Shown: piece after piece, positions 34,201-50,720 of the stretch
Layout of the letters: every line of letters starts with the position of its first letter
Numbering within the stretch: the stretch's first letter is position 1
Assembly: GCF_010501095.1 (NCBI RefSeq)
Contig: NZ_QVMP01000017.1
Coordinates: 1 to 64,000, forward strand
Direction: 5' to 3'
DNA from: Dysgonomonas sp. 520
Lineage (GTDB): Bacteria; Bacteroidota; Bacteroidia; Bacteroidales; Dysgonomonadaceae
DNA: 64,000 nucleotides
The notes under the pieces: generated by a model
The model's database searches: none
The model's input: the letters and a program-made list of their open reading frames with translations, nothing else
What the model was told of the DNA's origin: nothing
Made by a program: the position numbers and the translations under genes

Positions 34201-34439
34201 TTTTATCTCGTAATAGATATAATAATCAATCGTTTAAGTTTTTCAAAAGGCTAGTCCGTAACGAATTCGTAACGATTAAAATGATGCCTTTTTGTCTTGT
34301 TTTGGCAGACCGCTGTACGCCTAACTTCTAACCTCAAAGATAGAAAAAATTTCTTGTAAATTCATAGTTTTAAGTCCAAAATAAATACTTTAAAATAATG
34401 GTCATTAGAAAAGATTTTCAAGAAGATATATTGTATTAG

Positions 34440-34465
34440 TAGGGTATTTTGATTCTCATACGGTA
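34440..34465 (+). promoter_or_regulatory. ECF-sigma promoter copy 1 (DUF3108 gene)
   Basis: AGTAGGGTA, 14 bases, CGGTATA. Identical element order and spacing at 35341-35364 and 39121-39144. It lies 24 bases upstream of the DUF3108 start. Confidence 0.6.
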
Positions 34466-34488
34466 TATTATAAATAATAGATTCAGAT

Positions 34489-35301
34489 ATGAGAATCATA
34501 ATAAAAATTTCTATAATAATTTTAGCCCTTTTAATAGGCTTACAGCTTAAAGGACAATGTGGCATAACAAATAATACATTCCAATCAGGGGAAGAACTGA
34601 CGTATGATGTATATTTTAAATACGGTCTTTTACATAAAAAAGCAGGCACTTCTACTCTAAGAACAAAAGATGATAGGTATAAAGGACAAGATGCTTATAA
34701 AATGACTATGATTGCCAATTCCACAGGTTTGGCAAAAAAAGTTTTTACACTTTCCGATACGATGTATTGTTATATGAGCAAAACTCTTGAACCTCTTTCC
34801 TATACAAAATATGCACATGAAGGAAGCGACTATACACAAGAATACATCACCTATAATTATTCTTCGGGTAACGTCGATGTACATACAAAACTGACCCGTA
34901 GTAATAAACTTCGTCATGATACTATTATTACTTCTGAAAAATGCATCTATGATATGATGACCGTAGTTTACTATGCACGTACTCTAGACTATAAGCAGAT
35001 GAAGACGGGAGAATCAAAGAATAGTTTGCTCATATCCGGTAAAACAAAAGTAGATATAAAAATCAAATACAATGGCACAGAGAAAATAGATGCAAATGAT
35101 GGTAAGAATTATGACTGTATTGTTCTGACTTTGGTAATAAGCGATAAAGCATTCGAAGATAAAAAGGAAGCTATGAAAATTTATATAACAAACGACCAAA
35201 ACCGTATTCCCGTACGAATTAATTCCAAACTTAAAGTAGGTTCTAGCTATGTCCTTTTAAAAAAGATTTTAGGGAATAAGTATCCACTAAAAAACAACTG
35301 A
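34489..35301 (+). CDS. DUF3108 domain protein, exported
   Basis: The 270-aa protein has a signal peptide (about 1-22, LKGQC) and resembles DUF3108 proteins: FQSGEELTYDVYFKYGLLHKKAGTS near the start and KNYDCIVLTLVIS...YITNDQNRIPVRI near the end. Members are periplasmic or outer-membrane-associated beta proteins of uncertain function. It is the first gene inside the element and carries its own copy of the GGGTA-N14-CGGTA promoter, so it probably belongs to the regulon of the ECF sigma factor encoded next door. Confidence 0.75.
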   Translation: MRIIIKISIIILALLIGLQLKGQCGITNNTFQSGEELTYDVYFKYGLLHKKAGTSTLRTKDDRYKGQDAYKMTMIANSTGLAKKVFTLSDTMYCYMSKTLEPLSYTKYAHEGSDYTQEYITYNYSSGNVDVHTKLTRSNKLRHDTIITSEKCIYDMMTVVYYARTLDYKQMKTGESKNSLLISGKTKVDIKIKYNGTEKIDANDGKNYDCIVLTLVISDKAFEDKKEAMKIYITNDQNRIPVRINSKLKVGSSYVLLKKILGNKYPLKNN

Positions 35302-35340
35302 TATAGATAACATAACTCATAAAAAACGAATACCTTGGTA

Positions 35341-35364
35341 GGGTAATTCCTTTTTCAAACGGTA
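35341..35364 (+). promoter_or_regulatory. ECF-sigma promoter copy 2 (autoregulatory)
   Basis: GGTAGGGTA, 14 bases, CGGTATA, 25 bases upstream of the sigma factor start, as expected for autoregulation. Confidence 0.65.
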
Positions 35365-35388
35365 TAGGAATAAAAAGATATCATTGAA

Positions 35389-35877
35389 GTGATAAGTAAA
35401 ATAGAATTTAAAGAACTGTTCGACAAATATTTCGATACAATCAGAAGCTTTGTCTATTACAGGTGCGGGGATACAGAAACCGCATCTGATATAACACAGG
35501 AGGTTTTCATGAAGATTTGGGAGAAACGTGAGCAGTTTAAGGTAAGTGATATTAAAAGCCTGCTTTATAAGATGGCGAATGATATGGTTATATCGGATTA
35601 CCGTAAGGGGCAAACCCAGCTTAATTTTGAACAGAGCATGACTATAGGGCAGGATTATCATGCGTCTCCCGAAGAAATAGTGCAGTTTGAAGAGCTGAAA
35701 ACTACTTATTCAAAGGCCTTGGCTGATATGCCAGAGAATCAGCGGATAACATTCCTGATGAATCGTAATGAAGGCTTAAAGTATCATGAGATTGCAGAAA
35801 ACTTAAACATTAGTATTAAAGCTGTAGAGAAGCGTATCAGTACAGCTTTAGCTTATCTGAAAAAAGAATTACTCTAA
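35389..35877 (+). CDS. ECF sigma-70 factor (FecI-like)
   Basis: The 162-aa protein has region 2 (about 10-75; FVYYRCGDTETASDITQEVFMKIWEK) and region 4 (about 105-160; MPENQRITFLMNRNEGLKYHEIAENLNISIKAVEKRI). The only suitable start is GTG at 35389. A FecR-type anti-sigma gene starts 12 bases after its stop, and a TonB receptor with an STN signalling domain follows, so this is a full cell-surface signalling cassette. Three copies of GGGTA-N14-CGGTA in the next 4 kb, one upstream of this gene, are the likely target promoters. Confidence 0.93.
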   Translation: MISKIEFKELFDKYFDTIRSFVYYRCGDTETASDITQEVFMKIWEKREQFKVSDIKSLLYKMANDMVISDYRKGQTQLNFEQSMTIGQDYHASPEEIVQFEELKTTYSKALADMPENQRITFLMNRNEGLKYHEIAENLNISIKAVEKRISTALAYLKKELL

Positions 35878-35889
35878 AAAGTATACACT

Positions 35890-36672
35890 ATGAATACTGA
35901 CAAAATAAAAATAGAACCCCAGTGGAAAAAGAGCAAAGATGAAATCTGGAATGAAACCTTTGCAGATTTAACAGAAGAAACCACTACACAAGGGAAAGAA
36001 CCGAAACGAAAATCACTTTGGTTTTACGCTGCTGCTTCAGTGGCTGCCATTATCATACTACTGCCTAATATAGCTTTTATCTATACTAAAAATGAGGTTG
36101 CGGGAAGAGGTAATCATTTAGCTGTTGTATTACCTGACGGTTCCAAAGTCGATCTGAATGCAGAAAGTGAAATCAGTTATAAACCTCTATGGTGGTATGT
36201 TTCACGGAATGTGAAGCTAAAAGGAGAAGCTTATTTTGAAGTTGAGAAAGGAAGCACGTTTAATGTTCACTCGAATCAATATATGGTAAGTGTGCTGGGA
36301 ACAAGTTTCAATGTATTTTCTCGTGCAGATAAATTTACTGTTACCTGTCTTACCGGAAAAGTGAATGTATCGGATAAAACGGAATCCGTAATTCTTACTC
36401 CAAATATGCAGGCTTTATGGAATAATAAGCTAATTGTAAAAGATATAGAAAATGTAAAAGAAACAATTGACTGGAAAGAAGGAAAATTTGTTTTTGTCAG
36501 TGTACCACTCAAAGAAGTTATTCAGGAAATCGAAAGACAATACGACATTGAAGTACAGCCAAGTTCAAATTTAGACTATCTTTACTCAGGTAATTTTACA
36601 AAAGCACAAAATCCGAATGATGTACTTAAGATAGTAGGCAAACCCTTCGGTATTGAATTTAAAATCAAATAA
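35890..36672 (+). CDS. FecR-type anti-sigma factor
   Basis: The 260-aa protein has a cytoplasmic N-terminus (1-42), one membrane helix (about 43-65, WFYAAASVAAIIILLPNIAF), a FecR domain (about 75-170, LAVVLPDGSKVDLNAESEISY and VLGTSFNVFS) and a DUF4974-type C-terminal domain (about 190-260, FVSVPLKEVIQEIERQYDIEV). It should hold the sigma factor inactive until the TonB receptor signals ligand binding through its STN domain. It lies between the two, and the receptor's TTG start codon directly abuts its stop codon. Confidence 0.92.
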   Translation: MNTDKIKIEPQWKKSKDEIWNETFADLTEETTTQGKEPKRKSLWFYAAASVAAIIILLPNIAFIYTKNEVAGRGNHLAVVLPDGSKVDLNAESEISYKPLWWYVSRNVKLKGEAYFEVEKGSTFNVHSNQYMVSVLGTSFNVFSRADKFTVTCLTGKVNVSDKTESVILTPNMQALWNNKLIVKDIENVKETIDWKEGKFVFVSVPLKEVIQEIERQYDIEVQPSSNLDYLYSGNFTKAQNPNDVLKIVGKPFGIEFKIK

Positions 36673-39111
36673 TTGAATAAATTACTTTTCATACTTGTTA
36701 TAATTCTTACGAATACTATTGCAGCTTTTTCACAAGAGTTGCATTTAGTGGTTAAAGACAAGCCTTTGAATGAAGTATTGAGAAGCCTGCCTGTTGAAAT
36801 CTCTTTTGATGATAATGCCCTTGCAAAATACAAGGTTACCGTAAACCAAAAATTTGATAGTCCTGAAATAGCACTTAAATTCCTTTTCAAAGAAAAGCCA
36901 TTTCGCTTTGAAAATATAAACGGAGTGTATGTTATCAGTCGTTCTACAGAAAAGAAAGAGCAGCCTGTTAATATCCAGCCAAAGAAGTATTATACCTATT
37001 CGGGAACGATAAAAGATGCTGAAAGCGGAGAAAATCTTCCCTATGCTTATATTACTACTTCTGAAGGAGTGGTTCCTACAGATGAAACAGGATATTTTAC
37101 CTTTAAAACTGAAAGAAAAGGAAAACTACCTGTACTGGCTCAATATCTGGGTTATGAGAAGCAAGATACAACTTTATCCAGCGGATTTAATACAATCAAT
37201 TTATCTCCCGTTATATATACAATGGATGAAATCGTTGTCAGTTCATCACCCTCAACAATACTTATCCAATCGGGAGGTAGTCCCGGTGAAATTCGTATCA
37301 ACCATCAGGTAGCAAAATATATTCCCGGAAGTATTGATAATTCTGTTTTCAACCTGATGCGTATGATGCCGGGTGTAAGGGTATCTGGTGAACCATCGGA
37401 AGACCTGATTGTGTGGGGAAGCAATGCAGGTGACAGTAAAATAACTTACGACGGATATACCTTATTCGGTATAAAGAACTACAACGACCATATCGGTTCA
37501 GTCAATCCATATATGGTAAAAGATATTCGCATCATGAAAGGTGGATATAGTGCCAATCAGGGTGGACGGATCGGAGCAATCTCTGAAATAACGGGTATAG
37601 ACGGTGATTTTAATTCACCTTCTGTAAAAGCAACCATAAGTAATTACACCGCAAATCTTTTTGCTTCGGCTCCGTTATCAAAGAACCTCAATGTTTCAGC
37701 CGCATATCGCCAGACCTTTTATAATCTGTATAATAGTGGAAATGTCGAGTTACCTAAAAATGGTAGTGATAACGGTAATAATTCGCAAATATTTTCAGAT
37801 ATATACATTAAACCAAAGTATAATTTCAGGGATGCCAATTTCAAATTATCTGGAAAAGCTTTTAGCGAAGATTCTTATTATATCAGTATATACGGAGCAG
37901 ATGATCGCTTTAAATTCTCAGTGAAACAACCAGATGAATATGACATCAATGCTGCAGAAAAGAATAGGCAGTACGGTGGGGCAACATCTTACAAGCGTGT
38001 CTGGAGTAATGGCTCAAGTACTAAACTACTTGCAACCTTTTCGCGACTTACTTCTTTGCTCGATAATCTGGCAATTGTCGGTAACCGTAAGCCGACACCT
38101 ATGGATGTTAATCATCTGGATAATGTCGTTCAAGAATTTTCCATAAAACTGAATCACGATTTTTTTGTTGGGAAGCGTAATAAAATACAGATTGGCGGAG
38201 AATGGCAACAATACAAGGTAAGCCTGAATGATTTATGTGGAGAACTGGATAAGCCTACATTTTACATAACAGATAATCTATTATTGGGCAAATTGTCTCT
38301 AAATACAGGTATTAGAGTAGATATGCCAATCAATAAAAAGGCATATGTACAGCCTCGTATTTCTGGAAGATATAAAATATCGGAGCAGGTAACAGCAACC
38401 GCCTCATGGGGCTTATACAACCAATTTCTTACACGTACTGCTTACAAGTATGATGAATCAGGTATTCAGACTGTATGGAGTATGGCAGACAGTACTTTTA
38501 CAAAGGCAATGCATACTACTGTTGGTATTGCATATAGTAAAGATGGCTTTTTAATCAGCCTCGAAGGATATCATAAAAAGACAAAGAACGGACAGTATTT
38601 CCTTGATAACACTGTCTATAATATAGATAATACTATCTTAGGGGCGGACCTGTTTGCCAAAAAACAACTGAATAACCATACTATCTACAGTTCATATTCT
38701 ATCAATAATATCAAAAGACCACAAAACGAACTTTCGCATGAAATTAAGGTCGGAGGTATCGGAGCATTTGACCCTTTCTATTTTTCTTTGAGTTACGTAT
38801 ATGGAACCGGATTTGCTTACATCTCTACAGGAGGACACGGACATGGGCAAGGAAACGAAGAAGGTGAACATGAAGCCAGTCACGAACATACAGATTCTTC
38901 CGATGAAACATACAGCCGTTTTGATATCGGAGCTACATACAGGACACAAATAAAGAAAGTGAAACTACAAGCAGGTGTATCACTATTGAATGTTTTTGGT
39001 ACTAAAAACGTAAAATATAATTATCAGGTCTCGGGGCAAGCTAATGCTACAAACATCTTTACAAAGGCCACCCCATTCACTCCAACAGTTTTTTTTGAAT
39101 TAATTTTTTGA
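36673..39111 (+). CDS. TonB-dependent receptor with STN signalling domain and histidine-rich loop
   Basis: The 812-aa protein starts with TTG directly after the FecR stop. A signal peptide (1-21) is followed by an STN domain (about 22-78), a carboxypeptidase-regulatory-like domain (about 100-180), a plug (about 190-310, VFNLMRMMPGVRVSGEP) and a barrel. A loop near residues 719-745 is packed with His, Glu and Asp (GGHGHGQGNEEGEHEASHEH), a likely metal-binding lid. The STN domain talks to FecR. In this setting, next to Czc-type efflux genes, it probably senses or imports a metal or metal complex. Which metal (Zn, Ni, Cu, Co) cannot be told from sequence. Confidence 0.9.
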   Translation: MNKLLFILVIILTNTIAAFSQELHLVVKDKPLNEVLRSLPVEISFDDNALAKYKVTVNQKFDSPEIALKFLFKEKPFRFENINGVYVISRSTEKKEQPVNIQPKKYYTYSGTIKDAESGENLPYAYITTSEGVVPTDETGYFTFKTERKGKLPVLAQYLGYEKQDTTLSSGFNTINLSPVIYTMDEIVVSSSPSTILIQSGGSPGEIRINHQVAKYIPGSIDNSVFNLMRMMPGVRVSGEPSEDLIVWGSNAGDSKITYDGYTLFGIKNYNDHIGSVNPYMVKDIRIMKGGYSANQGGRIGAISEITGIDGDFNSPSVKATISNYTANLFASAPLSKNLNVSAAYRQTFYNLYNSGNVELPKNGSDNGNNSQIFSDIYIKPKYNFRDANFKLSGKAFSEDSYYISIYGADDRFKFSVKQPDEYDINAAEKNRQYGGATSYKRVWSNGSSTKLLATFSRLTSLLDNLAIVGNRKPTPMDVNHLDNVVQEFSIKLNHDFFVGKRNKIQIGGEWQQYKVSLNDLCGELDKPTFYITDNLLLGKLSLNTGIRVDMPINKKAYVQPRISGRYKISEQVTATASWGLYNQFLTRTAYKYDESGIQTVWSMADSTFTKAMHTTVGIAYSKDGFLISLEGYHKKTKNGQYFLDNTVYNIDNTILGADLFAKKQLNNHTIYSSYSINNIKRPQNELSHEIKVGGIGAFDPFYFSLSYVYGTGFAYISTGGHGHGQGNEEGEHEASHEHTDSSDETYSRFDIGATYRTQIKKVKLQAGVSLLNVFGTKNVKYNYQVSGQANATNIFTKATPFTPTVFFELIF

Positions 39112-39120
39112 TTTGAGGTA

Positions 39121-39144
39121 GGGTAAGATCTACTTTGTGCGGTA
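39121..39144 (+). promoter_or_regulatory. ECF-sigma promoter copy 3 (His-rich lipoprotein)
   Basis: GGTAGGGTA, 14 bases, CGGTACA, 58 bases upstream of the lipoprotein start. Confidence 0.6.
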
Positions 39145-39201: not shown

Positions 39202-39546
39202 ATGAAAAAGTTATTTTATTCCTTAGCATTGGTTTTATTTGCAGTAACATTTATTGCTTGTAGCAACGATGATCATGATGATTTTGGTACAACTTCACAG
39301 CAGGATATTGAGGTCAGAGCAGCAGCTTTAGGTTTTGATGATGTTGCAGCGTACAAAGCTAATGTTGCAGAACAATGTGTAGCTGGCAACCACGAAAACT
39401 GTGATATCTACAACGATGGAACTCATCAGGCATGTGCTTATTCAGATCATTCGGGACAAAACCATGACGGTACGCATCACAACGGATCGGATCATGGCAC
39501 ACATGATAAGAATGGACACTCTCATGGGAACAGTAATCACCACTAA
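39202..39546 (+). CDS. Small histidine-rich lipoprotein, likely metal binding
   Basis: The 114-aa protein has a lipoprotein signal (FIACSND, Cys20). Its C-terminal half (about 66-114) holds many His and Asp residues (HQACAYSDHSGQ, HDGTHHNGSDHGTH, HSHGNSNHH). There is no known fold in the His-rich part. It probably buffers or captures divalent metal at the outer membrane and hands it to, or withholds it from, the receptor encoded upstream, whose extracellular loop is also His-rich. The third ECF promoter copy sits upstream and a terminator follows. Confidence 0.75.
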   Translation: MKKLFYSLALVLFAVTFIACSNDDHDDFGTTSQQDIEVRAAALGFDDVAAYKANVAEQCVAGNHENCDIYNDGTHQACAYSDHSGQNHDGTHHNGSDHGTHDKNGHSHGNSNHH

Positions 39547-39564
39547 TTTTCCAAATGTAAATTG

Positions 39565-39603
39565 AGATTAGATAAGGGGACATCTCTCTTTATCTAATCT
39601 TTA
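39565..39603 (+). terminator. Terminator after the His-rich lipoprotein gene
   Basis: AGATTAGATAA (39565-39575) pairs perfectly with TTATCTAATCT (39590-39600), followed by TT. Confidence 0.6.
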
Positions 39604-39666
39604 AAACAAGCTGATTTCTTATTATATTTATAATAAATATACATTTCACCAGTTATTATACAAGAT

Positions 39667-40098
39667 TTGAAAAGAAAATTTCTCATATCATTTTTTGCTT
39701 TCTCAACAATAATATTGTTGATTCTTGCGATTGCTCCCCATCATCACCATGCAGGAATAGCATGTCTTATTATCGAAGTTTGTGAAGAAGATAGAACAAT
39801 AAACGATAAGCATACACATCACAATGAATCATCTGATAATAGTAATCATGACCAATCTTGTATCACTGAATTTGAGTTTACTATTACACAAATCAATGAT
39901 GAAGTAAATATTAAATCATTTTCCAATAATAATTATAAAGATTTATTCCCTTTATTTTTTATCACAGCAGATTCATTGAATCTTGTTACAACAGCATCTT
40001 TTTCTAAAATAGATTACGAAAAATATACCTTAAATTATAATTCTGTAAAATCAAACCGTATTCATGGTTTACGTGCACCTCCCATTACATTCTTATAA
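39667..40098 (+). CDS. Small exported His-containing protein (DUF6769-like)
   Basis: The 143-aa protein (TTG start) has one hydrophobic N-terminal segment (about 5-22) running into APHHHHAGIACLI, then HTHHNESSDNSNHDQSC. It resembles short His-motif proteins encoded beside RND metal pumps in Bacteroidota (DUF6769-like), but I cannot confirm the family. It is probably anchored in the inner membrane with the His cluster in the periplasm. A role in metal handling is inferred from the histidines and the neighbours. The lack of an ATG makes the exact start uncertain. Confidence 0.6.
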   Translation: MKRKFLISFFAFSTIILLILAIAPHHHHAGIACLIIEVCEEDRTINDKHTHHNESSDNSNHDQSCITEFEFTITQINDEVNIKSFSNNNYKDLFPLFFITADSLNLVTTASFSKIDYEKYTLNYNSVKSNRIHGLRAPPITFL

Positions 40099-40201
40099 CT
40101 AATCTTTTGACTTCGAGTAGTCTTAATAATTATTGTATTCGTATCCATACGACTGCATAAGGCGATATTATATCCAAATAATCACAATTAATAAAATAAG
40201 A

Positions 40202-41008
40202 ATGATGTTTTTTAAATCAAAAAAAGCATTGAGGATTATTGCACTAATATATTCGGTCTTACTTTGTGTAAACAGCATTTATGCCGATGAGAATGATGAA
40301 TTATCTTCAAGTAATGACAGTATTCAAATAAAGAGTGCAGACAAATTCTCATACAAACAACTGATTGTTCCCGGAACATTAATGTTGTATGGAACTATTG
40401 AAGCAACTCTCGCCCCTAAAAACCGATTGTTAAACTATGCTATAGGACATGAAGTGATAACGCATAAACCCGAAAGGTTTCAAATAGATGATATTACGCA
40501 ATATGTACCTGCTGCCAGTGTTTATGCTCTGAACTTAGTAGGGATAAAAGGTAAGCATAACTTTAAAGACAGGACGATTATTTTGGGTATGTCTACATTG
40601 TTTATGGCTGCCTCCGTCAATACAATTAAATACACAGCAAAAGTGGAAAGACCCGACAAGTCCAACCGTAATTCTTTTCCCTCCGGACATACAGCTGTAG
40701 CTTTCATGGGAGCCGAATTTTTATGGCAGGAATATAAAGATGTTTCAATCTGGTATGGTATTGCAGGATATACTATTGCTGCCGGAACCGGAGCATTCAG
40801 GATATATAATAATAAGCATTGGGTTGGTGATGTAGCTTTCGGAGCAGGGTTAGGCATTCTGAGTACAAAGCTTGCTTATTGGTTATATCCTACTGTTGAA
40901 AATAAGTTATTTAATGGAGGTCAGGATAAAAAGAATAAAAACAATATAGCTTTTTCTCCATTTTACAATGGACAGCAAGGAGGGCTGGCTTTTTCGATGC
41001 AGTTTTAA
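40202..41008 (+). CDS. PAP2 family phosphatase
   Basis: The 268-aa protein (ATG at 40202 or 40205) has a signal/anchor (about 5-28) and the three PAP2 motifs: KYTAKVERP, PSGHT (in NSFPSGHTAVAF) and RIYNNKHWVGD. It resembles outer-membrane or periplasmic lipid phosphatases such as lipid A or undecaprenyl pyrophosphate phosphatases. In the element it sits between His-rich proteins and the Fur-type regulator; removing lipid phosphates could change metal binding at the cell envelope, but that is conjecture. An in-frame upstream ATG at 40133 would add 23 polar residues before the signal and is less likely. Confidence 0.87.
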   Translation: MMFFKSKKALRIIALIYSVLLCVNSIYADENDELSSSNDSIQIKSADKFSYKQLIVPGTLMLYGTIEATLAPKNRLLNYAIGHEVITHKPERFQIDDITQYVPAASVYALNLVGIKGKHNFKDRTIILGMSTLFMAASVNTIKYTAKVERPDKSNRNSFPSGHTAVAFMGAEFLWQEYKDVSIWYGIAGYTIAAGTGAFRIYNNKHWVGDVAFGAGLGILSTKLAYWLYPTVENKLFNGGQDKKNKNNIAFSPFYNGQQGGLAFSMQF

Positions 41009-41072
41009 AAAATATGAAATTAATGGATTCTAATTTGTTATATAGTAAATTTGTATTTAATAACTATCAATT

Positions 41073-41495
41073 ATGAATGAGAATATTATAAAATTATTAG
41101 AAGGTCGGAATATAAAACCGACATCCACCCGCATATTGGTTCTAAAAGCAATGATCGATTTCGACAGGGCTTTTAACTTATCTGATTTGGAGACAAAGCT
41201 TGAAACTGTGGATAAGTCAACTATATCACGCACGATACACCTATTCCACGAAAATCAATTGATACATAGCTTTGATGACGGCTCGGGTTCTATAAAATAT
41301 TCGGTTTGCAACAGTGACTGCAACTGTGATATAAACGATCTGCATGCCCATTTCTATTGCAACTATTGTAAGAAGGCCTTCTGTTTGGAAAATGTATCCA
41401 TACCTAATTTCGAATTGTCTCCGATCATGCAGGCAGAAAGTGTAAACTTGGTCATTAAAGGGTATTGTGGTAAGTGTAATAAGTTTGCAACTTAG
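41073..41495 (+). CDS. Fur-family metalloregulator
   Basis: The 140-aa protein has an N-terminal winged helix (about 1-75, IKPTSTRILVLKAMIDF and STISRTIHLFHENQLIHSF) and a C-terminal metal domain with a Cys/His-rich stretch CNSDCNCDINDLHAHFYCNY and two CxxC pairs (CNYC, CGKC). The cysteine pairs suit the structural Zn site of Fur/Zur proteins; the extra CNCD is unusual. The palindrome TGCAACTTAGTTGCA overlaps its own stop codon and recurs upstream of the P-type ATPase, so it probably represses the efflux genes until metal is in excess. Zn or a similar divalent ion is the likely effector. Confidence 0.88.
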   Translation: MNENIIKLLEGRNIKPTSTRILVLKAMIDFDRAFNLSDLETKLETVDKSTISRTIHLFHENQLIHSFDDGSGSIKYSVCNSDCNCDINDLHAHFYCNYCKKAFCLENVSIPNFELSPIMQAESVNLVIKGYCGKCNKFAT

Positions 41496-41500
41496 TTGCA
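41486..41500. promoter_or_regulatory. Candidate metalloregulator operator 1
   Basis: TGCAACTTAGTTGCA is a perfect 6-3-6 palindrome. It overlaps the stop of the Fur-type gene and the region just upstream of a TACATTTG -7 box (41513-41520). Confidence 0.6.
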
Positions 41501-41512
41501 TGTTTTTTGTTA

Positions 41513-41520
41513 TACATTTG
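41513..41520 (+). promoter_or_regulatory. -7 box of the efflux operon
   Basis: TACATTTG, 20 bases upstream of the next start codon and 12 bases after operator 1, so a bound repressor would block RNA polymerase. Confidence 0.55.
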
Positions 41521-41540
41521 CACATAGAAATAAGAAAAAA

Positions 41541-41858
41541 ATGAAATCATCTGTATTCATAATAGGTATTTACTTTCTGATCCTTGCAGTGCTACCATGC
41601 CACTGCGATGTTCCGATAGCAAATACTTTTGGACAAAATACAGAGCAGGTTTCTACGGCAGATACAGAACATGATGATTCAGGAAATGAGTTCTGCACAC
41701 CATTTTGTTCATGTACCAGTCATCATAATCCAAACATTACTACAAACTATCAGATAATTCTCCGTAATACCAGTTTAAATGTCAAACATATGGCAGTATA
41801 TACTGATAAGGAGATTCCTTCATTTCTTTCTACTCTCTGGCGACCTCCGCAAGCTTAA
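41541..41858 (+). CDS. Small exported DUF6660-like protein
   Basis: The 105-aa protein (start at 41541, placed just after the -7 box) has a hydrophobic leader (about 1-18, ILAVLPCHCDV) and the Cys/His cluster FCTPFCSCTSHH (about 60-71), as in DUF6660 proteins found with RND metal pumps. The Cys-x-Cys and His-His residues could bind a soft metal. It is the first gene of the czc-type operon, 79 bases before the pump gene. Function unproven. Confidence 0.7.
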   Translation: MKSSVFIIGIYFLILAVLPCHCDVPIANTFGQNTEQVSTADTEHDDSGNEFCTPFCSCTSHHNPNITTNYQIILRNTSLNVKHMAVYTDKEIPSFLSTLWRPPQA

Positions 41859-41937
41859 AATATAACATCTGATTAAGTCTTGATGTACCCGATCGGTATG
41901 TCTTAAAAGCTAATTGTTATATTTTAATTCCAAAATT

Positions 41938-44900
41938 ATGTTTCAAAAACTGATTAAGTTCTCAATAGAGAATAAATTGGTGATTGGAGTTATGACTGTA
42001 GCCCTTATAATCTGGGGAGGCTATTCGTTGTCACAATTACCATTCGACTCAACACCTGATATAACCAATAATCAGGTACAAGTAATAACACAAGCTCCAT
42101 CATTGGGAGCACAGGAGGTAGAGCAATTTATAACTACTCCTTTGGAAATGGCCTTAGCCAATATTCCTAAAGTTGTAGAAAGAAGAAGTATCAGCCGTAG
42201 TGGGCTTTCGGTTATTACTATAGTTTTTAAAGAAAATGCCGATATCTACTGGGCACGTCAACAGGTAAGCCAACAGTTGAAAGAAGCCGAAGAAGTTATA
42301 CCCCAAGGTTTGGGGAAAATCAGTCTGGCTCCGATATCTACTGGGTTAGGAGAAATATACCACTATACAATCCGGGCAAAAGAAGGATACGAAGATAAAT
42401 ACAGTATTACCGATTTACGTACCATGCAGGACTGGATTGTTAGGAAACAGCTTTCCGGCACGGAAGGAGTTGCCGAAGTGAGTGGTTGGGGAGGCTTCGT
42501 AAAACAATATGAAATAGCCATCAATGCTGATAAACTGAATGCCGTAGGCATAACTATTCCTGAAATGTACACAGCCCTTGAAAATAATAACGAGAACACA
42601 GGCGGTAGTTATATAGAGCAATATAGTAACCAGTATTTCATACGTGGCATTGGTCTGGTAGGATCATTGGAAGATATAGAGAAAATTCCTGTAAAAACTG
42701 TAAACGGTACTCCTATACTGGTAAGGGATGTTGCTAAAGTGCAATTTGGCAGTTCGATGAGATACGGTGCTGTTACCCGTAATGGCGAAGGCGAAGTTGT
42801 AGCGGGTATTACCCTGATGCTAAAAGGAGAAAACTTTCAGGATGTTATTAAAAATGTAAAAGTACGGATGGAGCAAGTCCAGAAAAGCCTGCCCGAAGGA
42901 GTTATCATAGAGCCGTTTATTGACCGCACACAACTGGTTGACAGGGTTACCAATACCATTGCCAAGAATCTGGTAGAAGGAGGATTGATTGTGATATTTA
43001 TCCTTGTTCTGTTTTTGGGAAATTACAGAGCAGGTTTGGTCGTAGCTTCCGTTATTCCGCTTTCCATGTTATTTGCATTCGGTATGATGCGGCTCTTTGG
43101 AGTCAGTGGTAACCTGATGAGCCTCGGTGCGATTGACTTCGGGTTGATTGTGGATGGGGCGGTGATTATTGTCGAGGCAGTATGCCACCATATAAGCGTG
43201 ATGAAAGACAAGTATAAAGGAGCACTCCTGACACAGAAGCAAATGGATACGGAAGTATTTGACTCCGCTTCTAAAATAAGGAACAGTGCGGCATTCGGTG
43301 AAATAATCATTATGATTGTTTATATACCTCTTTTCACATTAGTTGGTATCGAAGGTAAGATGTTCAAGCCAATGGCTATGACCGTATTCTTTGCGATACT
43401 TGGAGCATTCATATTATCCCTGACTTATGTACCGATGGCAAGTGCATTGTTTTTAAGCAAGAAAACAGAACACAAACGGAATTTCTCGGATAAAATGATG
43501 GATAAGATAAGCGGATTCTATCGTCCTATTATAACCAAAAGCCTTAACTGGAGCAAGACATTAATAATAAGCATGATTGCTCTATTTGCTGTAAGCCTTT
43601 TTGTTTTCAATAAGATGGGTGGTGAATTTATTCCAAACCTTGAAGAAGGGGACTTCGCAGCAGAGATTAGTATGGCACAGGGAACCTCTTTGTCACAAAT
43701 GGTAAAGAGTACAACACAAGCCGAAAAGATACTCAAAGAGAAGTTTCCTGAAGTCAAACAGGCAGTATCACGTATCGGAAGTGCTGAAATTCCGACAGAC
43801 CCTATGCCTATTGAAAGGGCGGATATGATGATTGCTCTAATTCCGAAAAAAGATTGGACTTCCGCTAGGACAAAAGAAGAACTGATGGAAAAGATGGAAG
43901 AGGCGGTCAGTGTTATTCCCGGTATGGAAATAGAAATGACACAGCCTATCCAGATGCGTACCAATGAATTGATTACAGGTATTAAACAGGATGTGGCCAT
44001 TAAAATATACGGTAATGACCTTGATGTCCTTACATCATCAGCTAATAAAGTTGCTTCGCTTATTAAGAGTGTGGAAGGCGTTACCGATCCTTTTGTCGAA
44101 AAGGTAACAGGATTACCGCAGATACAGGTGGTTTATAACCGTGACCAGTTAGCCAAATACGGTATTTCCATTAAAGATGCCAACATGGTATTAAAGACAG
44201 CTTTCGCAGGCAATGAAGCAGGTTATGTATTTGAAGAAGATCGTCGTTTCGACCTCGTATTACGGATGGAAAAAGATTTAAGGAACGATATCAGTTCATT
44301 GGAGAATCTATATCTACCTCTTCAATCAGGCGGTTCTATCCCTCTCTCACAGGTAGCTGAAATAAAATACCAAGATGCACCTGCACAGGTAACCCGTGAA
44401 GATGCAGAAAGGCGTATTTACGTTGGTTTTAATGTGAGAGGACGTGATGTGCAGAATACCGTGTATGATATTCAGAAAATACTTGATAAGGAGTTTAAAT
44501 TACCTGCCGGATATTATTATACCTACGGAGGACAGTTCCAGAACCTGAAAGAAGCAAAAGACAGGCTGATGGTAGCCGTACCATTGGCATTGCTACTGAT
44601 ATTATTCCTTTTGTATGCCACATTGAGAAGTGTTAAGGAATCATTGTTCGTATTCACAGCCATACCTTTATCTGCAATAGGTGGTATTTTCGCCTTATGG
44701 CTAAGAGGAATGCCTTTCAGCATTTCGGCGGGCGTCGGCTTTATAGCCCTCTTTGGTGTTGCCGTATTGAATGGTATTGTACTTATCGGGCAGTTTAACT
44801 TATTTGAAAAGGAAGGTATTAAGGATATAAAGGAAAGGATTGTCAAAGGATGTATGTTACGCCTTCGCCCTGTAATCATGACAGCTCTTGTAGCGTCTCT

Positions 44901-45048
44901 TGGATTTCTTCCGATGGCTCTATCTACAAGTGATGGAGCTGAAGTGCAAAGACCACTGGCAACTGTCGTTATAGGAGGATTGCTGACTGCCACGATACTT
45001 ACACTGGTTGTCCTGCCTTCGATTTATAAAACATTCACGAAAAAATAG
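41938..45048 (+). CDS. czcA: CzcA-type heavy-metal RND efflux pump
   Basis: The 1036-aa inner-membrane pump has 12 membrane helices and two large periplasmic loops. In helix 4 the signature DFGLIVDGAVIIVEA places Asp400, Asp406 and Glu413, matching the proton-relay and specificity residues of the HME1 group, which exports Co, Zn and Cd. The Cu/Ag group lacks this pattern. I start at ATG 41938 (MFQKLIKFSIENK), the usual N-terminus of the family. The TolC-like partner follows after 8 bases and the adaptor 4 bases after that, so the tripartite exporter is encoded as one unit. Confidence 0.95.
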   Translation: MFQKLIKFSIENKLVIGVMTVALIIWGGYSLSQLPFDSTPDITNNQVQVITQAPSLGAQEVEQFITTPLEMALANIPKVVERRSISRSGLSVITIVFKENADIYWARQQVSQQLKEAEEVIPQGLGKISLAPISTGLGEIYHYTIRAKEGYEDKYSITDLRTMQDWIVRKQLSGTEGVAEVSGWGGFVKQYEIAINADKLNAVGITIPEMYTALENNNENTGGSYIEQYSNQYFIRGIGLVGSLEDIEKIPVKTVNGTPILVRDVAKVQFGSSMRYGAVTRNGEGEVVAGITLMLKGENFQDVIKNVKVRMEQVQKSLPEGVIIEPFIDRTQLVDRVTNTIAKNLVEGGLIVIFILVLFLGNYRAGLVVASVIPLSMLFAFGMMRLFGVSGNLMSLGAIDFGLIVDGAVIIVEAVCHHISVMKDKYKGALLTQKQMDTEVFDSASKIRNSAAFGEIIIMIVYIPLFTLVGIEGKMFKPMAMTVFFAILGAFILSLTYVPMASALFLSKKTEHKRNFSDKMMDKISGFYRPIITKSLNWSKTLIISMIALFAVSLFVFNKMGGEFIPNLEEGDFAAEISMAQGTSLSQMVKSTTQAEKILKEKFPEVKQAVSRIGSAEIPTDPMPIERADMMIALIPKKDWTSARTKEELMEKMEEAVSVIPGMEIEMTQPIQMRTNELITGIKQDVAIKIYGNDLDVLTSSANKVASLIKSVEGVTDPFVEKVTGLPQIQVVYNRDQLAKYGISIKDANMVLKTAFAGNEAGYVFEEDRRFDLVLRMEKDLRNDISSLENLYLPLQSGGSIPLSQVAEIKYQDAPAQVTREDAERRIYVGFNVRGRDVQNTVYDIQKILDKEFKLPAGYYYTYGGQFQNLKEAKDRLMVAVPLALLLILFLLYATLRSVKESLFVFTAIPLSAIGGIFALWLRGMPFSISAGVGFIALFGVAVLNGIVLIGQFNLFEKEGIKDIKERIVKGCMLRLRPVIMTALVASLGFLPMALSTSDGAEVQRPLATVVIGGLLTATILTLVVLPSIYKTFTKK

Positions 45049-45056
45049 AAGGAGTT

Positions 45057-46310
45057 ATGAAAACAAAAATAAGAATATCAATACTTACATTTCTTGTGAT
45101 ACTGCTTGCTGTACCATCAGGTGTTTCAGCACAGGAAAGTGTAAATACGCTGGATGAATGTATCCGTCTGGCAATGGATAATAACCTGACCATGAAATCA
45201 GGTAGGATATCTATTGAAAGGGCAAAAGATTTACAAGGTACAGCATTCAATATTGAAAAGACGGGCTTCTCTTTGAGTCAAGACCCGACATCGGGAGGCA
45301 GCCCTGATAATAGTATATCATTAAGCCAGAGTTTCGATTTTCCAACTGTTTATACTACACGTAGTAAATTGCTTAAAGCGGAAACGAATCTTGAACGCAG
45401 TAATCTGGAAGTAACTCGTAATGAACTTGTAAAAGAAATTACTGCGACGTATTATCAGTTACTGTATGCAAAGGAGAATATTAAAATCCTCCAAGAACAG
45501 GATAGCATATATTCAAAATTCCTGTTTCTGGCTTCTACTAAATTTAAAGCGGGTGAAACAAGTCGTTTGGAACAGATGAATGCTGAGAGGTTGTATAATG
45601 AGAATAAAATAGAACTGCAAAAAGCTGAAAAGGATTATCAAAATATACAGCTTATCTTACAAAGATGGATGAATGCCGAAATATCGGTAAATCCTCTTGA
45701 AGCCGAATTGCCTGTAATGGCAGCGAATTACCCTTTCAATAATTTCAGTGCAGAGCAAACACCTATGGGAAGGGTATTGCAAAGCCAGAAAGAGGTTCGT
45801 GAAAAGAATCTGAGCGTAGTTAAGCAGGGATATCTTCCGAGTTTCAACTTTGCACTAAAAAACCAGTTCCTTATAAAAGGGTTCAATCCTTATGATGTGG
45901 AAAGAGAACGATTTAATAAGGGAAACTTTATGGGATTTGAAGTGGGTGTCAGCGTTCCGTTATTCTTTGGAGAACAAAGGGCAAAGACCAAAGCAGCCAA
46001 AAGGGAAGTTGAAATGGCAAGGGTACAGCAGGAAGAAGTGGTACAGACTATGCAGAAACAGTATCAGACATATATCAACGACTTTTATAAGGCAAAAAAC
46101 AGTCTGGATTATTATACTTCTCAGGGAATCACTCAGGCGGATGATATTACCCGCATATCACAAATTTCCTACGAAAAAGGAGAAATAGGTTATGTTGAGT
46201 ATATCCAGAACCTGAAAACAGCCGTTGAAATCCATTTGCAACGCACAAACGCAGTAAATGACTACAATCAGACTATCATTATGTTAAACTATATACAAGG
46301 AAACAAATAA
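45057..46310 (+). CDS. TolC-family outer-membrane factor of the metal efflux system (CzcC-like)
   Basis: The 417-aa protein has a signal peptide (about 1-25, SGVSAQE) and two long helical-hairpin repeats of the TolC/OEP fold (about 35-215 and 235-415), with the characteristic DECIRLAMDNNLTM start. It forms the outer-membrane exit channel for the CzcA pump encoded 8 bases upstream. The adaptor gene starts 4 bases after its stop. Confidence 0.92.
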   Translation: MKTKIRISILTFLVILLAVPSGVSAQESVNTLDECIRLAMDNNLTMKSGRISIERAKDLQGTAFNIEKTGFSLSQDPTSGGSPDNSISLSQSFDFPTVYTTRSKLLKAETNLERSNLEVTRNELVKEITATYYQLLYAKENIKILQEQDSIYSKFLFLASTKFKAGETSRLEQMNAERLYNENKIELQKAEKDYQNIQLILQRWMNAEISVNPLEAELPVMAANYPFNNFSAEQTPMGRVLQSQKEVREKNLSVVKQGYLPSFNFALKNQFLIKGFNPYDVERERFNKGNFMGFEVGVSVPLFFGEQRAKTKAAKREVEMARVQQEEVVQTMQKQYQTYINDFYKAKNSLDYYTSQGITQADDITRISQISYEKGEIGYVEYIQNLKTAVEIHLQRTNAVNDYNQTIIMLNYIQGNK

Positions 46311-46314
46311 GATT

Positions 46315-47514
46315 ATGAAAGCAATATATATATCGTTAATAAGCCTGTCTTTGATATTACTGGTATCATGCGGACAGAATACAAAGCCCGAAAACGCTGA
46401 AAATCCAGCAGTAAATACCGAACAGGCTCATGAAGGTGAATCGGGAGAAATTGAAGTATCCGAAGCACAGATGAATGCTGTAGGTATTCAGATGGGTAAA
46501 ATAGAACAACGTGAATTAAACAGTGTAATTCGGGTAAACGGAGAGATGGACCTCGATCCACAGAAAAAAGCGGAAGTAACATCCCTTGTCGGCGGAATAA
46601 TAAAACAAGTACTTGTAATAGAAGGGAAACGTGTTTCGGCAGGTCAAGCTGTTGCTTATCTCGAAAACACAGAAATAGTTGAACTTCAGAAAAATTACCT
46701 GACATTAAGGAAAGAAGCACTAACTGCAGAACAAGAATATAACAGGCAGAAAGAGTTATCTTCTCAGGGTGCAGGTGTCGAAAAAACATTTCAACAGGCT
46801 ACAGCTGCTTATGAAATAGCAAAGGCACAGCTCACCGGACTTGAAAAACAATTGCGTCAACTATCTATTAGTCCCGAACAGGTTTCGGCAGGTAATATGG
46901 TTACCCAGATTCCTATTAAATCCCCTATTTCGGGTACGGTGAGGAAGATAAATATTAGTACAGGAAGCTATGCAGATTCACAAATTTCATTGATGAGTAT
47001 TTCTGATAATTCGGCAGTACACTGTGATATGAAAGTTTTTGAGAAAGATATAAACGCAGTAAAGATTGGTCAGGAAGTGGATATTCTGCTAACTAATCAA
47101 CCCGGAGTGAACCTGAAAGGTGAAATTTACGAGATAAATAAGTCTTTCGAGGGTGATACAAAAGCCATATTAGTACATATCCGTATTAAGAATCAGGGAA
47201 ATATTGAGTTGATACCGGGAATGTATGCTACAGGGTTAATCAATGTCGGGAAACAAAAAACACCAGCGGTTCCTAATGATGCGGTTATAAGCAGTGAAGG
47301 GAAAAAATACATATTTGTACTCGAAGACGAAGAAAACGGACAGGAAGGTAAAAGTTACCATTTCAAACGGGAAGAAGTTATAACAGGAATCAGTGAGTTG
47401 GGATTTACACAGATTACCCCAGTCAATCAATTGGAAGATGATGCAACTATTGTTATAGCCAACGCTTTTTATATCGCCTCAATGGCGAGTGATCACGGTG
47501 AACACGGACATTAA
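46315..47514 (+). CDS. Periplasmic adaptor (CzcB/HlyD-like) of the metal efflux system
   Basis: The 399-aa protein has a lipoprotein signal (LLVSCGQ, Cys19), a barrel-sandwich/lipoyl-like domain (about 85-110 and 195-220, TSLVGGIIKQVLVIEGKRVSAGQ), an alpha-hairpin (about 115-185) and a beta-barrel. The C-terminus ends in SDHGEHGH, a short His-rich tail that may capture metal. It connects the RND pump to the TolC channel. It is the last gene of the unit; the P-type ATPase has its own operator and promoter 17 bases downstream. Confidence 0.92.
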   Translation: MKAIYISLISLSLILLVSCGQNTKPENAENPAVNTEQAHEGESGEIEVSEAQMNAVGIQMGKIEQRELNSVIRVNGEMDLDPQKKAEVTSLVGGIIKQVLVIEGKRVSAGQAVAYLENTEIVELQKNYLTLRKEALTAEQEYNRQKELSSQGAGVEKTFQQATAAYEIAKAQLTGLEKQLRQLSISPEQVSAGNMVTQIPIKSPISGTVRKINISTGSYADSQISLMSISDNSAVHCDMKVFEKDINAVKIGQEVDILLTNQPGVNLKGEIYEINKSFEGDTKAILVHIRIKNQGNIELIPGMYATGLINVGKQKTPAVPNDAVISSEGKKYIFVLEDEENGQEGKSYHFKREEVITGISELGFTQITPVNQLEDDATIVIANAFYIASMASDHGEHGH

Positions 47515-47530
47515 TTTGCAAAGATAAGTT

Positions 47531-47545
47531 TGCAACTTGGTTGCA
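47531..47545. promoter_or_regulatory. Candidate metalloregulator operator 2
   Basis: TGCAACTTGGTTGCA matches operator 1 at 14 of 15 positions, with both arms identical. It lies 12 bases before a TATTTTTG -7 box (47558-47565), the same spacing as at operator 1. Confidence 0.62.
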
Positions 47546-47557
47546 GCTTTTACTACT

Positions 47558-47565
47558 TATTTTTG
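47558..47565 (+). promoter_or_regulatory. -7 box of the P-type ATPase gene
   Basis: TATTTTTG, 17 bases upstream of the chosen ATPase start, adjoining operator 2. Confidence 0.5.
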
Positions 47566-47582
47566 TAATAAATAATATGGTT

Positions 47583-49508
47583 ATGGATAATAATAAACAA
47601 TATAAATGTACATCATGCGATTCGGATGAATCGCATGATAATTCACAAAGCTGGAAAAGCTATGTTCCTGTTGCAATAAGTTTATTTATGCTTTTAGCAG
47701 GAATTACCTTGGATAATTTCTTCGAACAGTTTTTTAATTCTTATATACGGATTGGATGGTATATACTGGCTTATATTCCTGTAGCCTATCCTGTGTTAAA
47801 AGAAGCTATTGAAACAATACGGCAAAAGGATTTTTTTACTGAATTTACCCTGATGCTTGTAGCGACATTAGGAGCGTTCTTTATTGGCGAATATCCCGAA
47901 GGCGTGGCTGTAATGCTGTTTTATGCTGTTGGTGAATTATTTCAAAGCTCTGCGGTAAATAAAGCCAAAAGAAATATAAAAGCACTTCTTGATGTACGTC
48001 CTGATACAGCTGTAGTGGAAAGGAACGGAAGTCACGAAACAGTATCACCGGAGAATGTTGAAATCGGCGAAATAATACAGGTGAAAGCTGGAGAAAAAGT
48101 TCCGTTAGATGGTACAATGATTTCTCCTTCAAGTAGCTTTAATACATCTGCTTTGACAGGTGAGAGTAAACCAAAAACAATATCAGAAGGGGAGACAGTT
48201 CTTGCGGGTATGCTCAATATTGATAAGGTAATCACCATTAAGGTAGCCAAAAAATACGAAGACAGTTCTCTGGCCCGTATTCTGGAAATGGTGCAGGATG
48301 CCACTTCAAGAAAAGCAAAAACCGAACTTCTAATCAGAAGGTTTGCCAAGATATATACTCCGATAGTATTTGCACTGGCAGTTTTAATTACTGTTATACC
48401 TTATTTTATAATCAGTGATTATATATTTCAGGATTGGTTATATCGTGCCTTAGTATTTCTGGTAATATCCTGCCCTTGTGCGTTGGTTATCTCTATTCCA
48501 TTGGGGTATTTCGGTGGAATCGGTGCGGCTTCAAAAGCAGGTGTCTTATTTAAGGGAGCCAATTACCTTGACCTGATGACCAAAGTAAATACTGTGGTAA
48601 TGGATAAAACAGGTACTTTGACAAAAGGCGTTTTTGATGTTCAGGAGGTTGTTGCAGTCGAAAATATTGATAAAGATGAATTGACAGGAGTAGTTGCTGC
48701 AATGGAGAAATTCTCTAATCACCCTATTGCCAAGGCTATTGTTGCTTTTACAGGGAATAAAGCAGATAAATATAATGCAACCGATATCGAAGAAATATCC
48801 GGACACGGGCTGAAAGGTAAGGTTAATGGTAAGGAAGTACTGATCGGTAATAATAAACTGATGAAAAAATTCGGTATTGATTATGATATCAGGGTGGATT
48901 TCATTGTTGAAACGATTGTGATTGCGGCTATTGACGGTAAATATGCCGGATATATTACCATTGCGGATGAAGTGAAGGAAGATGCCGCTGAAGCTATAAA
49001 GAATATGCATACAAATGGCATCGGAAAAATTGTGATGCTAAGCGGAGATAAAGCCTCAATAACAGAAAAAGTTGCATCTGTTCTCGGAATAGACAATGCT
49101 TATGGAGACTTATTACCTGAAGATAAAGTGAAACATCTTGAACAACTGAAAGCAGATAAGAATAATGTAATTGCTTTTGTCGGTGATGGTATAAACGATG
49201 CTCCTTCTCTTGCACTGAGTGATGTTGGAATTGCTATGGGAGGAATGGGAAGCGATGCTGCTATTGAAGTTGCAGATGTAATCATTCAGACAGACCAACC
49301 ATCCAAGATTGCTACCGCCATAAAGATTGCTAAATCTACCAGACAGGTAGTTATGCAAAATATAATCTTAGCATTTACTGTTAAGGCTATTGTTCTTATA
49401 CTTGGAGGTTTCGGTGTCGCAACTATGTGGGAAGCTGTCTTTGCCGATGTAGGGGTATCGTTACTGGCTATACTGAATGCAGTCAGGATTTTGAGAATGA
49501 AATTCTGA
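47583..49508 (+). CDS. Zn/Cd/Pb-type P1B ATPase (ZntA/CadA-like)
   Basis: The 641-aa protein (ATG 47583; 47577 also possible) exports soft divalent cations from the cytoplasm. Motifs: CPC (Cys297-Pro-Cys299) in the transport helix, phosphorylated Asp341 in DKTGTLTKG, SGHGLKGK and NHPIAKAI of the nucleotide domain, and GDGINDAPSLALSDVGIAMG of the hinge. There is no N-terminal HMA domain; instead a short CTSCDSDESHD motif may bind metal. CPC followed by a Zn-type helix arrangement favours Zn/Cd over Cu. Its own copy of the TGCAAC-N3-GTTGCA palindrome suggests control by the Fur-type regulator encoded 6 kb upstream. Confidence 0.93.
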   Translation: MDNNKQYKCTSCDSDESHDNSQSWKSYVPVAISLFMLLAGITLDNFFEQFFNSYIRIGWYILAYIPVAYPVLKEAIETIRQKDFFTEFTLMLVATLGAFFIGEYPEGVAVMLFYAVGELFQSSAVNKAKRNIKALLDVRPDTAVVERNGSHETVSPENVEIGEIIQVKAGEKVPLDGTMISPSSSFNTSALTGESKPKTISEGETVLAGMLNIDKVITIKVAKKYEDSSLARILEMVQDATSRKAKTELLIRRFAKIYTPIVFALAVLITVIPYFIISDYIFQDWLYRALVFLVISCPCALVISIPLGYFGGIGAASKAGVLFKGANYLDLMTKVNTVVMDKTGTLTKGVFDVQEVVAVENIDKDELTGVVAAMEKFSNHPIAKAIVAFTGNKADKYNATDIEEISGHGLKGKVNGKEVLIGNNKLMKKFGIDYDIRVDFIVETIVIAAIDGKYAGYITIADEVKEDAAEAIKNMHTNGIGKIVMLSGDKASITEKVASVLGIDNAYGDLLPEDKVKHLEQLKADKNNVIAFVGDGINDAPSLALSDVGIAMGGMGSDAAIEVADVIIQTDQPSKIATAIKIAKSTRQVVMQNIILAFTVKAIVLILGGFGVATMWEAVFADVGVSLLAILNAVRILRMKF

Positions 49509-49877: not shown

Positions 49878-50720
49878 ATGAAACAATATACATATGAACT
49901 GAGCTTTAAAATAAATCAAGAATTAAAAGAAATAGAATGTGAAGAAGAGAATATATTTAACAAGGCACCTAAAATAATATCGTTATTAGAAAATACATTT
50001 ATCGAACTCAAAGAATTTATTTGCACATATAAATTCAAAAATATTGAGGAAGAAATACATTTCTTCAAAGAAATTAAACCTCAGCTATTTAGTAAGTTAA
50101 TATATAATCGAAAAATTTATTGCATAGAAACGATGATACCCAATGGTAGTATAGAATCACAAAATGCATATTTACGAAGTGAACAAGACCATTTAAAAAT
50201 ATTTTTTGATAGGAACCTTGATTTTTATAAATACTACCGAACAGGTTGTACTCATCTCGATAGGTATTATTTTGTAAGAGGAAAACCTGATATTCAATTG
50301 AACTTAGATACTTTTTATTTCGAAAGAGATCCAAAATTCTCAACTAGTTTTGACTTTAAAGTATCTAAAATTATAGCAAATGAGATGCTTGCAATTTACT
50401 TAAATGAGAAATTAAAGGCATTAAACAATTCCCCTAATTCTTCAAATTTCAGCTCTGTTAAAAAGAAACTGACATGGACAGCTAAAAAGACAGAATTAGT
50501 AGAACAAATATACGCTTGGGAAAGAGCTGAATGTTTTGATTATGGTAATACAAATATAAAGGAGATCGCTGAATATGTAGAAGAGGTTTTTAATATTGAC
50601 TTGGGAGATTTTTATCATGCTTTCTTAGAAATAAGAGAACGTAAAGGAAGTCGCACGATATTCTTGGATAAACTGATAAAGTTTTTGAATGAACGTATGG
50701 ACGAATTAGACAATAAATAA
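49878..50720 (+). CDS. rteC: RteC family regulator of conjugative-element excision
   Basis: The 280-aa protein matches RteC of CTnDOT-type elements in length and in blocks such as FFKEIKPQLFSKLIYNRKIY, TGCTHLDRYYFVRG and LVEQIYAWERAECFDYG near the C-terminal winged-helix part. In CTnDOT, RteC switches on the xis2c-xis2d operon and so starts excision and transfer. Here two Xis2c/Xis2d-like genes lie 1.1 kb downstream, in the same direction. rteA and rteB are not in the window. It is good evidence that the 34-64 kb region is an integrative conjugative element. Confidence 0.88.
   Translation: MKQYTYELSFKINQELKEIECEEENIFNKAPKIISLLENTFIELKEFICTYKFKNIEEEIHFFKEIKPQLFSKLIYNRKIYCIETMIPNGSIESQNAYLRSEQDHLKIFFDRNLDFYKYYRTGCTHLDRYYFVRGKPDIQLNLDTFYFERDPKFSTSFDFKVSKIIANEMLAIYLNEKLKALNNSPNSSNFSSVKKKLTWTAKKTELVEQIYAWERAECFDYGNTNIKEIAEYVEEVFNIDLGDFYHAFLEIRERKGSRTIFLDKLIKFLNERMDELDNK

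Follow-up and report, generated by a model that had tools for sequence, protein, structure and literature searches.

Three copies of a putative ECF promoter, GTAGGGTA-N14-CGGTA, at a FecI/FecR/TonB-receptor locus of Dysgonomonas sp. 520 and its conservation in the Bacteroidota

The 64-kb stretch of Dysgonomonas sp. 520 DNA analysed here (the window) carries three plus-strand copies of a bipartite motif, GTAGGGTA-N14-CGGTA, which most probably serve as promoters read by the ECF sigma factor encoded among them (Table 1). Drawing on comparative sequence analysis, we place the probability of this reading at roughly 0.85. We also favour, with somewhat less assurance, a broader interpretation, in which GTAGGGTA-N14-CGGTW would be an undescribed ECF promoter code of a Bacteroidota-wide, autoregulated FecI/FecR/TonB-receptor family that has kept its promoter and swapped its secreted effector; the same code would drive structured small RNAs in one genus and elsewhere ride on mobile metal-resistance islands.

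Table 1. Features of the sigma locus and its surroundings in the window.
Feature	Coordinates	Strand	Basis or remark
ECF promoter 1 (predicted)	34439..34465	+	Upstream of DUF3108 gene, 23 nt before ATG
DUF3108 secreted protein gene, 270 aa	34489..35301	+	Pfam PF11306, E=2.7e-40
ECF promoter 2 (predicted)	35338..35364	+	Upstream of sigma operon; conserved beside orthologues; predicted autoregulation
ECF sigma factor, 162 aa, GTG start	35389..35877	+	Pfam Sigma70_r2, Sigma70_r4_2
FecR-type anti-sigma, FecR and FecR_C domains, 260 aa	35890..36672	+	Pfam
TonB-dependent receptor: STN-like N-terminus, CarboxypepD_reg-like, plug	36673..39111	+	Pfam; fold search
Receptor His-rich loop codons, HGHGQGNEEGEHEASHEH	38836..38889	+	Residues 722-739; common to relatives encoding His-rich lipoprotein
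ECF promoter 3 (predicted)	39118..39144	+	Upstream of His-rich lipoprotein gene
His-rich lipoprotein, 114 aa, 13 His	39202..39546	+	N-terminus resembles PG1828 family lipoprotein
Hairpin, then U-rich tail, after lipoprotein gene	39564..39601	+	-21 kcal/mol, z -4.9
Same-strand neighbours of lipoprotein gene	39667..49508	+	Pfam and profile matches

The initial annotation had described GGGTA-N14-CGGTA, preceded by (G/A)GTA, at 34442-34465, 35341-35364 and 39121-39144. All three are exact plus-strand matches, set against an expected count of 0.04 in shuffled windows, and the spacer is 14 nt long in each, with spacer and flank sequences that differ from site to site. The trinucleotide GTA immediately precedes GGGTA in all three, so the left box is better described as the 8-mer GTAGGGTA than as the two-part element first proposed. 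The assignment of the sites to the DUF3108, sigma and His-rich lipoprotein genes was likewise upheld, with the motif ending 23, 24 and 57 nt before the respective start codons. Genome-wide, the full motif has exactly three matches in 3.9 Mb, all at this locus, and it occurs at none of the other proteins with a sigma70 region 2, of which the genome encodes 13 including this sigma. The 5+5 pattern alone has six matches, three outside the locus, compared with nine for the reversed control, and near-matches with one or two mismatches elsewhere in this genome are no commoner than in the control. The claim of a closed regulon can be maintained for exact sites only.

The domain content of the locus is that of a FecI-type system. 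The sigma factor comprises sigma2 and sigma4 regions only and is followed directly by its FecR-type partner (PF04773, 62.7 bits; PF16344, 39.4 bits). It matches TIGR02985 (Sig70_bacteroi1) over its full length at 125.9 bits, short of the curated cut-off of 126.4, and is therefore not formally a member. A plug domain was found in the receptor by Pfam; the STN/FecR_C matches at its N-terminus fall below the Pfam cut-off, the same weak STN signal recurs in relatives, and the predicted order of secondary structure fits STN, the underlying model being weak. A fold search with a short STN-only model was uninformative, this model being too weak to search with. For the receptor there is an AlphaFold model whose overall confidence is low; its best fold matches were TonB-dependent transporters only, among them ZnuD, OprC and full-length FpvA. 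A sequence search for solved structures returned no match for either DUF3108 or the receptor. The His-rich stretch of the receptor sits in a long loop, probably an extracellular one.

The main reading draws its strength from conservation. Relatives were gathered by receptor homology and by sigma homology, and the DNA upstream of 85 distinct sigma proteins was scanned; the motif was called where at least 11 of 13 bases matched at a spacing of 14, a score of 11 being reached by shuffled sequence in about 0.25% of cases. Its presence follows the sigma HMM score closely, with 15/15 sigmas scoring at least 230, 10/25 scoring 190-230, 1/26 scoring 125-190 and 0/19 scoring below 125 having the motif upstream. 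A spacing of 14 was found at 25 loci and every other spacing at 0-3. When 68 sigmas were placed on a maximum-likelihood tree, every motif carrier fell into one clade (SH-aLRT 99), where carriers make up 31 of 42 members (26 with the site just upstream of the sigma, five with it elsewhere in the locus) as opposed to 0 of 26 outside. The other 11 clade members lack a site in the region scanned. Two of these apparent exceptions, like one further relative that is not on the tree, do have a site, placed before an upstream lipoprotein gene at a distance of about 0.7-1.1 kb from the sigma. Over 394 kb around sigma loci, 59 sites were counted compared with six matches to the reversed pattern. The sequence logo shows GTAGGGTA and CGGTW, with a spacer tending towards TTYRT at its 3' end and, farther upstream, a stretch rich in A/T. 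With its spacing unchanged, the motif extends across the Bacteroidales and into a Cyclobacteriaceae MAG whose receptor is 32-33% identical. At three loci (L200, L202 and L208), two or more copies follow one another, either ahead of a single operon or close to it. As a general Bacteroidota element the motif was ruled out: in a survey of 394 genomes from the phylum its exact form had four matches besides its own, and the reversed control had more.

Because the same motif recurs beside the relatives of this sigma across many Bacteroidota, it is very probably the promoter that this sigma reads. The same sequence stands upstream of the sigma and of its putative targets and is conserved along with the sigma, as expected of an autoregulated regulon. 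The initial annotation had named conservation beside orthologous sigmas as a check on its proposal, and on that count it fared well; its further suggestion of a -35/-10 pair for this sigma group is supported by a motif that tracks the clade at a nearly constant spacing. That three copies lie within 5 kb might point to chance or to local duplication of one sequence. The divergent spacers and flanks and the low expected count speak against such an origin, however, and the independent conservation of the motif in distant relatives refutes it, leaving a probability close to nil.

The strongest sequence-based indication of where transcription may begin comes from a structured RNA found behind the motif in a single genus. 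In one genome (G1088), a unit of about 345 bp is present in four tandem copies, every one starting with the motif (L213, G1088:C1 about 470400-471650), and three congeners contain single related units (L228, L229 and L230), each behind the motif. In 7/7 units, from four genomes, the first base of a conserved RNA lies 7-8 nt downstream of CGGTN. It is about 160 nt long and structured, with a terminator-like 3' hairpin and compensatory changes in nine of its 28 predicted pairs; an Rfam search with it gave no credible match. Co-occurrence of sigma and RNA is uninformative here, as the sigma is present in 48 of 60 genomes of the family to which this genus belongs, including three of the four RNA carriers, the fourth being a 77% complete assembly. 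If the conserved RNA starts at +1, GTAGGGTA falls at about -35 and CGGTA at about -10, and the apparent start agrees with the earlier prediction of one 5-10 bases downstream of CGGTA.

These observations also bear on whether the motif could be the binding site of some other regulator, for instance an activator or the island's own Fur-family repressor. A Fur-family gene is indeed located 2 kb beyond the third site, and recognition of the motif by the sigma is a prediction from sequence. The motif nevertheless tracks the sigma clade over many loci with no Fur gene nearby; its two boxes, fixed 14-nt gap, variable spacer and A/T-rich upstream stretch are the architecture of a promoter; and the conserved RNA begins 7-8 nt past the second box. 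We regard another regulator as improbable.

With the sites read as promoters of the sigma, FecI-type surface signalling with positive feedback is the best supported candidate mechanism. The anti-sigma would hold the sigma until the TonB-dependent receptor, through its STN-like N-terminus, sensed a surface signal and caused its release, as in FecI-FecR-FecA. The freed sigma would recognise GTAGGGTA as -35 box and CGGT(A/T) as -10 box across a 14-nt spacer with a weak TTYRT at its 3' end, initiate about 7-8 nt further on, and so turn on its own operon together with a few genes for secreted proteins or lipoproteins, which here would be the His-rich lipoprotein and DUF3108. In the island version, a divalent heavy metal may well be the signal, and the lipoprotein may buffer metal at the cell surface; the Fur-family and Czc/ZntA-type efflux genes alongside have no motif.

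Locus after locus, the motif precedes the sigma operon and an adjoining gene for a secreted protein or lipoprotein. Nearly all products encoded downstream of it are of these kinds, though the genes vary. A His-rich lipoprotein occupies this position in the window, in L058, in L064-L067 and twice in L085; a DUF2202 lipoprotein in L070, L072, L193 and L201; a Spy-like protein, named by eye and matching no Pfam family above cut-off, in L077, from the Cyclobacteriaceae MAG; and repeat-rich secreted proteins in L088, L195, L197 and L198. Other relatives have lipoproteins of no named family in this position, and in one genome (G956) the motif precedes a lipoprotein gene on a contig other than that of the sigma. 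DUF3108, which the initial annotation included in the regulon, has the motif in front of it nowhere but in the window and in near-identical copies; in relatives the gene is absent or decayed. In three of them (L064, L039 and L065) its gene has decayed to short fragments upstream of the sigma, whose promoter is intact. By this comparison DUF3108 is a lineage-specific, peripheral addition and not a core member.

The proposed link to metals fares unevenly: gene content bears it out for the island version, and the varied targets argue against it for the clade as a whole. A metal signal is plausible for the island version because the His-rich receptor loop is shared with relatives encoding the His-rich lipoprotein, and we consider it an even bet. 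It is not general to the clade because in relatives the promoter stands before genes for DUF2202, Spy-like or repeat proteins. The loop is absent from the DUF2202 versions checked, except for a weaker His-containing stretch in L193, and its co-occurrence with the lipoprotein may reflect shared ancestry. Sensing and import of a metal-free ligand (a peptide, siderophore or glycan), with the metal genes as coincidental island cargo, would fit the DUF2202, Spy-like, repeat or unassigned lipoproteins that clade relatives control outside the island, as well as the many ligands carried by receptor barrels of this kind. We hold it to be a tentative but serious alternative, against which stand the joint occurrence of His-rich loop and His-rich lipoprotein and the arrangement in another island, L085, whose second His-rich lipoprotein gene also has this promoter and lies immediately before Fur and Czc genes.

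The genes that follow the lipoprotein encode DUF6769, PAP2, a Fur-family regulator, DUF6660, a CusA/CzcA RND pump, an outer-membrane factor, an adaptor and a P-type ATPase of the Zn/Cd type (cadmium family). Transcription from promoter 3 might run on as a single message across DUF6769, PAP2, Fur, the RND pump and the ATPase, in which case the regulon would be the whole efflux locus: the genes at 39202-49508 are closely spaced and all in the same orientation, and none of those after the lipoprotein has its own motif copy. The strong hairpin and U-rich tail after the lipoprotein, likely a terminator or a partial one, and the presence of a Fur-family regulator inside the gene run make this unlikely. 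The region of about 34200-62000 resembles a mobile element, with RteC at 49878-50720, HTH excisionase-like genes and a 1792 aa helicase/methylase-like protein, and the sigma island has near-identical relatives in genomes of Bacteroides, Parabacteroides and Dysgonomonas.

Several known systems resemble the one described here. In the CnrH/CnrYX metal-resistance system of Cupriavidus, an ECF sigma likewise lies beside metal-efflux genes; sensing there is by periplasmic CnrX/CnrY and not by a TonB receptor with FecR, and CnrH drives the pump operon itself. Dual membrane-spanning anti-sigmas (Dma) also belong to Bacteroidota ECF systems and pass a signal across the envelope. They extend from the cytosol to the outer membrane, and the partner of Dma1 is an ECF21-family sigma, whereas the window anti-sigma is an ordinary FecR/FecR_C protein with these two domains only. 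The 'Bacteroides expansion' sigmas of TIGR02985, which the window sigma matches as given above, use this promoter in one clade only. FecI-FecR-FecA signalling, that of the ferric citrate system of E. coli and its relatives, likewise has an ECF sigma, a FecR/FecR_C anti-sigma and a TonB receptor with STN-like N-terminus encoded side by side. It differs in that fecIR is not autoregulated (PMC9249621) whereas the window sigma has a motif before itself, predicting autoregulation; in outputs, which here are secreted proteins or lipoproteins rather than transport genes; and in promoter sequence. The SM6 promoters of Flavobacterium psychrophilum share a -10 box that contains CG and is presumed to be recognised by an ECF factor, but that box is CGT rather than CGGTA, the excerpted text mentions no GTAGGGTA -35 box, and the link is to T9SS and low nutrients (PMC9723704).

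Literature searches found no description of the motif; their scope did not extend to the main ECF reclassification (doi 10.1093/nar/gkaa1229), where a predicted motif may be given. The kind of system is already known; in the searchable literature there appears to be no account of the promoter code, of its effector swapping or of the small RNA linked to it. Bacteroidota genomes encode dozens of ECF sigmas with few promoters known, and a 2020 transcriptome study stated that none was known for any ECF factor of Bacteroides thetaiotaomicron (PMC7366714). A sharp, searchable promoter tied to one sigma clade would make regulons readable from sequence, and exposes targets (unassigned lipoproteins, DUF2202, a small RNA) with a testable common role; together, sigma and motif would form an orthogonal sigma-promoter pair.

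Two minor observations concern individual relatives. Three clade members have no receptor (L088, 7503-8759; L197; L198), and their extended anti-sigmas, which in the first two are FecR-type proteins lacking FecR_C and bearing an extension of about 250 aa, are reminiscent of dual membrane-spanning anti-sigmas. On the reverse strand of L085, at 5.3-10.8 kb, a cassette of PAP2, ArnC-like glycosyltransferase, epimerase and ArnT-like genes, named by eye, lies between two motif-bearing His-rich lipoproteins and is suggestive of lipid A modification.
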